This document shows, in pieces, positions 19,701 through 30,870 of a stretch of DNA of 64,000 bases (position 1 is its first letter; each line of letters opens with the position of its first letter). The stretch comes from Apteryx mantelli (taxonomy: Eukaryota > Chordata > Aves > Apterygiformes > Apterygidae). Position numbers and translations under genes: made by a program. The stretch lies in NCBI RefSeq assembly GCF_036417845.1, contig NC_089980.1:62680501-62744500 (forward strand). Direction: 5' to 3'. The notes under the pieces were generated by a model, which saw only the letters and a program-made list of their open reading frames with translations, did no database searches and had not been told where the DNA came from.

Positions 19701-22700
19701 ATTTCGAGCACTGAAGTATACCATGGCATTGACGCTTACAGGCAAGCAGTGCAAAGGAGATCATAGAGTGCTTGCTTGGTTTCTGCAAACATCAGAGCAA
19801 TGCCTTTTGCTGTTTGTCACAAAATGAGCAGGGTTCTGGCAAATTCTCAGAGCTGACCTTGTTTGCTCTCACTGACTGAATCGGAAGAATGATTAGGCCA
19901 ACACCAACTGCTTACTAAAGCAAATCCCATCCTATGTCAAACTTTATTTCTCATGAGGCCTTAAAAAGTGCTAGAGCTAGACTGACTCTTGGTGGCTGAA
20001 GATGATATGAATTTATCACATTTCCATAATTTCATCTAATGGTTTTGAGATAGAGGAAACAAAGAATTTTGTGGTTAGCAGAAGTAGAAAGCATTTAACA
20101 GAAAGGCAGTGGAAAAGTAGTTGGGGAAAATATTTCAAAGCTTTAGATTAACATTTTTTTAAAACATACACAACTAGAATTTTTTATTCTGTGGCTAATA
20201 TTTGAAGTCTTCATTCTCTGTTTTTGTAATTATTACAGTATTGCAGGAATCCTGATGGAGATGTAAATGGTCTTTGGTGCTTCACAACAGACCCAGAAAA
20301 AAAATGGGAGTACTGTGAAATCCCGCGCTGCTGTAATTATCTTTAAAACTTTTCTGTCTTCACTTTCTACAGTCTGCTATGATAGTTACAAGATGTATTC
20401 AATCTAACCAACAAAAAACTGCAGTAGGTAGTAGCTTGAGATTTGAATTTAGGTTTGCATGGAAGCTTGACACAGACAGGTGCCTGTAATAGTCAGCCAA
20501 AGTTTAGTTAACCCAGTGCTAGGAATAATCTATATGATTTTGTAGATAACAATTCATGTGTTCTTTATCATCAGTGAAGCTAAGCACTCAGAGCTGCTAG
20601 CTGAAGTCAAAATATTCGGTAAAGCTGCACAGAGGTGTTCATTCCCTGGAGTCCTCAAGCACAGGAGAGGATTTACTTGATGTTCATCCTAGTCTTTCTA
20701 TGCACTTTGTGGCAAAACTAGCACTTGTAGAACCTGACCATACACTTTTTCTGTTAGTGGAGAGCACCAGAGACATCATGAATATCCTTTTCATCCTCTG
20801 CTGAAATAATTTTTGTTCTGATCTGGATGTTAAAGTAATCCATCCCTAGGCATTTTGCCTTTCCTCTAGAGTGGGGAGTAGATTAAGTCCTGGATGTTTT
20901 ATATAGGATTCCTTATTTCTTCCTTCTATTTTGGGATACTAATTGGCATACCATGCATGTGTAGTCCTCGTGTAAAAACTCAACAGCAAAAGAATTTTTA
21001 GCTACTAAGGTGCCCTGGCAATGGGAGTCAATAAGAGGTGTAATGTACTGGGAGTGCTGCTTGGCGTATTTGTCAGTCACGTCATTTGCTTTGTTCTTCC
21101 CTGCCTTGTCTGAATGTTGACAAACGTTTTTTGGTATATCTGGCAGCAAGATGAAAAGTCTATTTCTTTATTTTATATATTAACTATACTACAATAACAT
21201 CTGGAAGCCATGTTCCAACTCTGTTTGACAGTGTAATAATATAAAACTGAGTAGAGAGGTCTCTCTCCCAGCAGTATAAAATATTCTTAATGTTGACCAC
21301 CTAATGTGTTCCTCTAAACAGCAATGCATTATGACTGTACATATTAAGTTTGCCAGCCAGACCTAAGACTACACAAGCAAAAAGAATAAGGAACAGTATA
21401 CAAAAACATATCACAGCTGTAAAAATATCCTCTCTCTGGAACTGCTGTGGTGAATCTTTACTTCTGAGATCTGATCTCTTTTCAAAGCAGCCTTGAATAT
21501 TAGATTTTTAATTTCAAGTGTATGGGAACTTTAAAGTCCCTTGCCTTTTGTCTTTGATTGCTTTATTAATTGTCTCTTACTGGAACTAACAAATTTCATG
21601 TTCACAGCAACATATGCAGCTCTGGAAAGAGTTGCTTGGGTCCTTACTCAGCACCCAAGCTCCATTTATTTAAAGAAGTTCAGAGAGATTTGGACTAACA
21701 AGAAAACAGAGTGAGCAATGTGAAGACAAAACTGTAATATTTTGTGATGAGGAGACAGTGACTCAATTTTATTTACGGTAATTTACAGATTGGTTTAAAT
21801 TCAACCAGGGTGCAGCCTGTAAGGTTTTGAGGAATTTAGAGAGTTATTACATTTAATTGGTCTGGGCCATAAACTCTTGTACTTCCTTTCACTCTCTTTT
21901 CCCTTCAGCTTTCCACCCAGATGTTCTTTTTTTCCTGGCTCATCATAGTTTTACTTATTGATTATATTATATTACTTATATTAGCTGATCACAGGCATCC
22001 AAATACTTGACATAGCTGACAATTTTTGCCAATGTCTTGTCATGTCAAAAGTGATATATTAACTCCAGCTTAAAGTGTTCATGGTAATAATGATATAATG
22101 GAGTCAAAGGGTGCTGCTTGTTTCTTTATCCTTAGTTTCTATTAACCTGCATAAAGAATGAAAGCCTAAAGAGGACATAGAGGCCTTATTCCTTTCTCTT
22201 TTCATCTGATTGCCCTGTGAAAGACATTACAGAATTGCTTTCAGATTCATTGTGGCTTTCTTTTATTCTGTAGCTTCTTCTCACCCTGACTGTGGAAAAT
22301 TCCCAATGCGAAGAGGGCGAGCCTGTGAGCCATATGGCATGTGTTATGCATCTCCAGGGTCTTGGCCTTGGCACGTCAGTCTCAGGACAAGGTATTGATA
22401 TTCCAGACTGCATCACCATCTGTGAGCAGCAGGGTTTCATAAGGAACAGGCGTTAGAAAGACTGGGACAAAACAGTACATGGGCTTCTGGAGACTGGCCT
22501 TGGTCTCTATATAAAATACCTTAAAATGTAATTTTTTTTTATCATAATGGCCACAGATAGTTACTATTGAGTAGTTATCCCAAAACTCTCCAGTTTCTGC
22601 TGAATCTCTAGAGGGCAGACTTGAACTGCAGACCTTGAGTATGCCTTGATTTACTGAAATGGGAAAGGAATAAGTCTTGCTGAGCATAATGAGAGTTAAT

Positions 22701-30870: not shown

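Follow-up and report, generated by a model that had tools for sequence, protein, structure and literature searches.

A tblastn search with human plasminogen protein as bait placed three plasminogen copies in tandem on the plus strand around the stretch analysed here, a window of 64,000 nt (C3:62680501-62744500): copy O, then gene A, then gene B (Table 1). Gene A lies 3' of the decayed copy O and 5' of the intact gene B. Gene B had 19 exons coding for 802 residues, with AAHC, GDSGGP and QR-IVAG present; judged by these motifs it is an ordinary plasminogen. Gene A also had 19 exons (2430 bases), joined in one frame of 809 residues with a single, terminal stop and no internal one, as the original prediction had it. 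That prediction had given 22274-30870 as the gene, a span that holds only exons 14-19, the protease; the whole gene occupies 1716-30870. Exon phases were the same in A and B, and the PAN domain, five kringles and trypsin domain passed the Pfam cut-offs in both. The product of gene A matched human plasminogen well above chance, with 1070 bits in an alignment to PDB chain 4a5t_S. The domains, this score and the intact frame bear out the earlier view of A as a separate five-kringle pseudoprotease that arose from a plasminogen duplication.

Table 1. Features of the plasminogen locus; positions are those of the window unless marked C3
Feature	Position	Strand	Content
MAP3K4	C3:62.549-62.597 Mb	-	beyond copy O
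Copy O	C3:62644782-62665820 (window -35718 to -14680, outside the window)	+	third plasminogen copy, decayed
Gene A	1716-30870	+	plasminogen paralogue, 19 exons
A exon 1	1716-1764	+	signal peptide, 16 residues; secretion signal judged by eye
A exons 2-3	4789-4924, 5984-6090	+	PAN domain; N-S-T sequon at residue 87
A exons 4-5	11087-11201, 12331-12470	+	kringle 1; exon 5 donor GC
A exons 6-7	13013-13133, 13264-13382	+	kringle 2
A exons 8-9	14562-14724, 15640-15770	+	kringle 3
A exons 10-11	16409-16574, 18163-18353	+	kringle 4; lysine-site basic residue replaced by Leu
A exons 12-13	19362-19510, 20239-20332	+	kringle 5
A exon 14	22274-22391	+	activation site lost: C-EPYGM-C, human C-PGRVVGG-C
A exon 15	23461-23535	+	TAAQC (His57 to Gln); Gly43 to Val
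A exon 16	24593-24733	+	Asp102 kept (GADIGLL)
A exon 17	27853-27959	+	Gly140 to Ala
A exon 18	29545-29690	+	Asp189 kept; Ser190 to Tyr; Gln192 to Glu
A exon 19	30709-30870	+	EADAGG (Gly193 and Ser195 to Ala); Gly226 to Thr; stop
Gene B	42941-63316	+	intact plasminogen, exons 1-13; exons 14-19 past the window, to C3:62750379

Introns of gene A followed GT-AG in 17 of 18 cases; the one after exon 5 starts with GC (12471-12472), a non-consensus donor. An in-phase GT donor noted by eye 24 bases downstream (12495-12496) would lengthen the linker between kringles 1 and 2 by 8 residues without a stop. An AATAAA was present at 30971, about 100 bases past the stop of gene A. Rfam gave 0 matches in the window, and no other gene was recognised when the 10 ORFs of at least 130 aa in the window were inspected by eye. 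A short tandem repeat array of the CTATACAATA type lies at 53766-53841, in intron 3 of gene B.

The two genes were nearly identical around exon 1. Positions 1508-2287 of A equalled 42733-43512 of B at 779 of 780 bases, a single mismatch dividing identical stretches of 433 and 346 bp, and the edges were sharp; the tract runs from 208 bp before the ATG through exon 1 into the start of intron 1. When the genome was searched with this tract three places were found, A and B over its whole length and a 162-bp part in O at 76%. A candidate HNF1-like site with 2 mismatches was seen in all three copies, at -114 (A, B) and -113 (O). The segment of the A-B blastn alignment holding the tract was 76% identical and the one around exon 12 77%, and the remaining segments were mostly 54-69% identical, exons included. 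The tract is probably the product of a recent gene conversion between A and B, and an assembly fault is the less likely cause. The near-identical promoter sequence leads directly to the prediction that the two genes would be co-expressed. That gene A is itself an artefact of assembly or gene modelling appears very improbable: misassembly or a base error might explain both the GC donor and the tract that is almost the same in A and B, but the 26 of 28 homologous-looking blastn segments outside the tract and exon 12 cannot be mistaken for B, and frame and phases agree over 19 exons. Exons 7 (13264-13382) and 12 (19362-19510) of A had a dS to B of only 0.12 and 0.18, whereas the remaining 16 exons in the comparison ranged from 0.29 to 1.31; these two exons are possible older conversion tracts.

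The protease domain of gene A was dismantled at more than the catalytic residues. The triad positions His57, Asp102 and Ser195 read Q, D and A, confirming by alignment the motifs TAAQC and ADAGG and the kept Asp102 and Asp189 that had been reported for this gene (chymotrypsin numbers were carried over by pairwise alignment and are approximate in loops). In the activation loop, which was two residues shorter than in human plasminogen, R561E, V562P, V563Y and G565M were found. G193A altered the oxyanion position, G43V and G140A were further changes, and the S1 pocket carried S190Y and G226T, with Q192E beside them; Asp189 and Asp194 were kept. As read from the alignment, the activation site and the S1 pocket are gone alongside the H57Q, S195A and G193A changes. 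Where human and B agree, 12 of 23 functional positions were changed in A versus 40 of 139 others, with a p value of 0.03 that serves as a guide only, the set (26 positions, 23 usable) having been drawn from textbook knowledge and fixed after the changed sites were known. In O, 4 of the same 23 positions and 34 of the 139 others were changed (p=0.60). Protease changes polarised with human numbered 52 in A versus 12 in B.

Copy O allowed the losses to be ordered. It carries two stops in exon 2, one in exon 11, and a stop and a frameshift in exon 10; its exons 5-9 were not found, exons 4 and 10 lying 736 bases apart. All six of its protease exons have stayed open, with H57Q present and GDSGG and R-IVGG intact. 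Over the protease exons A and O had H57Q and 9 other derived states in common, compared with 1 for A and B and 3 for B and O. In the kringle exons that could be compared with O the corresponding counts were 1 (A and O), 2 (A and B) and 1 (B and O), too few to decide. An AU test on the protease exons gave p=0.986 for the topology ((A,O),B,human) and 0.015 for either alternative; with all shared exons taken together the values were 0.935, 0.081 and 0.010. A grouping of A with B was set aside on the protease exons (AU 0.015), whereas over all shared exons, where the alternatives stood at 0.081 and 0.010, the test did not reject it. Since H57Q is common to A and O and the protease topology joins them, the histidine was most likely lost before A and O split, and the terminal branch of A most likely runs wholly after that loss, in a post-catalytic state. 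These states suggest an order in which the histidine went first, followed by the serine, the oxyanion hole, the activation site and the pocket.

The lysine-binding part of gene A looks intact in its residues, save for one basic residue of kringle 4. In the kringle numbering that we assume here, the acidic pair of the lysine site was D-D, D-E, D-E, D-D and D-D in kringles 1 to 5; Trp62 and the aromatic residues at 64 and 72 were kept in all five, and the basic residue at 71 in four of five, kringle 4 being the exception. Kringle changes polarised with human were 34 in A versus 24 in B (1 versus 5 in kringle 1 alone), and PAN changes 10 versus 6. The split of changes between A and B differed between protease and kringles (Fisher p=0.009). 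Residue Lys311 of the human protein was Glu in kringle 3 of both A (15640-15770) and B (58351-58481); according to the part of PMC11231438 consulted, the human K311E change causes angioedema. Kringle 3 in A and B may be able to bind lysine.

The part of PMC11231438 consulted also describes closed human plasminogen, in which Arg68 and Arg70 of the PAN domain face the kringle 4 residues Asp411 and Asp413. At the place of human R68-M69-R70, A reads N-S-T and B reads R-R-T, giving a sequon in A that is absent from human and B. Arg70 is lost in B too, and the loss of A relative to B is Arg68 only; Lys50, a contact of kringle 5, is kept in A. We infer that the product of gene A would be held in the open form.

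Selection was estimated with a three-sequence star-tree codon model in which codons split at exon joins were left out. The pairwise dN/dS of A and B was 0.40 over 768 codons, with a dS of 0.57 (0.76 in the protease). Branch values for the protease exons were 0.82 in A, 0.27 in B and 0.43 in O. The value of A was not below 1 (p=0.50; 95% grid 0.5-1.5, or 0.45-1.2 without exon 14) and differed from that of B (p=0.003), and the value of O was below 1 (p=0.01) although the copy is broken. The protease exons of O being more constrained than those of A, O possibly died late, and it makes a weak clock for decay. In kringle exons 4, 12 and 13 the values were 0.29 in A, 0.51 in B and 0.60 in O; A differed from 1 (p=0.009; grid 0.15-0.7, or 0.15-0.8 without exon 12) in this test of 3 of its 10 kringle exons. 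Conversion from B itself may keep some kringle exons of A close. PAN (76 codons) gave 1.46 in A, not different from 1, 0.20 in B and 1.12 in O. Over all 436 shared codons the values were 0.66 in A (p=0.07 against 1), 0.28 in B and 0.56 in O, and one value for the protease and kringles of A was rejected only at p=0.048. A dN/dS near 1, named beforehand as a sign of a young pseudogene, was thus found in the protease exons of A but not in the three testable kringle exons.

The neutral model started from the codons of B, and for the protease from those of O as well, with GC 0.40 and kappa 2.5 as chosen values. Under neutrality 15.8 (d=0.15) to 24.8 (d=0.28) stops were expected in the 768 compared codons, and A had none (P 8.7e-8 to 5.8e-12). 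For the protease exons alone 4.9-7.7 stops were expected from the codons of B (P of no stop 6.6e-3 to 3.4e-4) and 4.7-7.3 from those of O (P 8.2e-3 to 4.8e-4). All 48 conserved cysteines were kept in A, including 12 of 12 in the protease (P 1.3e-2 to 3.7e-4). Human, B and O agree at 124 protease positions, and A departs from them at 29 of these, compared with 34.9, 43.8, 51.5 and 55.8 expected at d of 0.15, 0.2, 0.25 and 0.28, which amounts to 0.52-0.83 of the neutral rate of change. The larger gap (d=0.28) is the better guide since the dS of the protease branch of A was 0.28; at d=0.15 the protection was slight. The protease mean near 1 probably hides a protected core together with fast change elsewhere.

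A young neutral pseudogene, which fits badly with the lack of stops, the 48 cysteines and the conserved positions changing below the neutral rate, was set aside on the frame, the cysteines and the retention of conserved sites. We kept the alternative that gene A is dying, that is, functional until recently, now unexpressed or functionless and intact by timing, and consider it unlikely. It would account for the protease and PAN values that do not differ from 1 and for the GC donor at exon 5, and copy O, broken though its protease exons look constrained, indicates that genes here can die late. However, 19 exons held no stop or frameshift, all 48 cysteines were kept and conserved positions were partly protected; the probable recent refreshing of the promoter tract also argues against it, though conversion needs no selection.

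Our best explanation, offered tentatively and at a little less than an even chance, is that the product of gene A is secreted, cannot be activated, binds lysine and acts as a competitor of plasminogen. Gene A would be an old, still protein-coding plasminogen paralogue, neither activatable nor catalytic; synthesis and secretion of its product are predicted to follow those of plasminogen. Its kringles are predicted to bind fibrin and cell-surface lysines; by competing with plasminogen at such sites, the product would be a decoy or a natural brake, as has been proposed for apolipoprotein(a). The basis for this in the sequence is the open frame, the loss of the catalytic residues, activation site and S1 pocket, the retention of lysine-site residues and cysteines, and the promoter common with B; from these we infer expression, secretion, binding and competition. 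Several results weigh against the competitor: the values of 0.82 for the protease, 1.46 for PAN and 0.66 (p=0.07) over all exons, the GC donor, the lost basic residue of kringle 4, a protease more constrained in O than in A, and the loss of Arg70 in B too. The neutral expectation is independent of O, and our weighting of the competitor is therefore unchanged. If gene A is expressed, avian fibrinolysis would have a gene-encoded, built-in plasminogen competitor and A would be an independent case, beside apolipoprotein(a), in which to study the purpose of a non-proteolytic plasminogen.

A decoy or a ligand had both been proposed for gene A. The decoy fits better than an HGF-type ligand because A lost the activation cleavage that HGF keeps. 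We regard as doubtful the proposal that gene A encodes a plasminogen-related growth factor, a receptor ligand in the manner of HGF and MST1. His57 to Gln and Cys-Glu at 191-192 are common with HGF, the fold was kept while protease change sped up, and a growth-factor-like role is suggested for the extra bird PLG in the consulted part of PMC6337849; but HGF keeps R-VVNG where A has EPYG, and A is nearest plasminogen (1070 versus 485 bits to HGF) and has five kringles. An HGF-like cleavable ligand was set back in particular by the lost activation site. It is more doubtful still that gene A serves as a cofactor or scaffold that holds activators, receptors or inhibitors through its dead protease and not its kringles: all protease cysteines were kept while the domain changed fast, but activators and inhibitors usually dock at the activation site and the S1 pocket, both of which this gene has lost.

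A fuller form of the competitor explanation, which we think unlikely to hold in all its parts, takes gene A as the avian counterpart of primate apolipoprotein(a), evolved by birds at the plasminogen locus as a full-length plasminogen mimic that always stays single-chain. An N-glycan on PAN at N-S-T, the place of human R68-M69-R70, would keep the PAN face from clamping kringle 4 and leave it open for lysine, and conversion would keep the promoter in step with that of plasminogen, so that brake and enzyme would be made together.

Compared with active plasminogen, gene A has the PAN domain, five kringles and trypsin domain but neither the Arg561-Val562 site nor His57 and Ser195. HGF and MST1 are kringle pseudoproteases of a separate, older branch of the family and have four kringles. 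MST1 was seen only as a protease-domain chain (129.8 bits, with the kringle 5-protease query). The claim that HGF has the same His to Gln change held in an alignment to PDB chain 7mo7_D, and HGF also has Cys-Glu at 191-192 (PCEGDYGG, compared with YCEADAGG in A); in its lost activation cleavage, A is less like HGF than had been thought. Gene A is not new in kind, a catalytically dead PLG-2 of birds having been in print since 2019 (Chana-Munoz et al. 2019, PMC6337849, as far as consulted). Gene A beside B shows the same combination, an extra plasminogen copy with lost catalytic residues next to an intact one, and judged from the published description it is very probably bird PLG-2. A search of the genome for beta-keratins, in which 150 out of 229 candidates were scored, gave at least 150 matches; reptiles may have such genes as well, so that these matches mark a sauropsid, and a chicken-like arrangement of its contigs and genes points to a bird. 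The consulted part of PMC6337849 mentioned neither a third copy nor the loss of the activation site, and it gave no sequence of losses, no selection estimates by domain and no promoter conversion. It does describe coelacanth PLG copies without catalytic activity that lost PAN and have one kringle only; these are non-catalytic plasminogen paralogues like A, presumably of independent origin, but A keeps PAN and five kringles. Apolipoprotein(a), encoded by LPA, resembles A in being a kringle protein derived from plasminogen and without protease activity, and in its chromosomal neighbourhood, with MAP3K4 nearby. LPA is without PAN and has many copies of kringle 4, whereas gene A keeps PAN and kringles 1 to 5 and has no expanded kringle-4 array.
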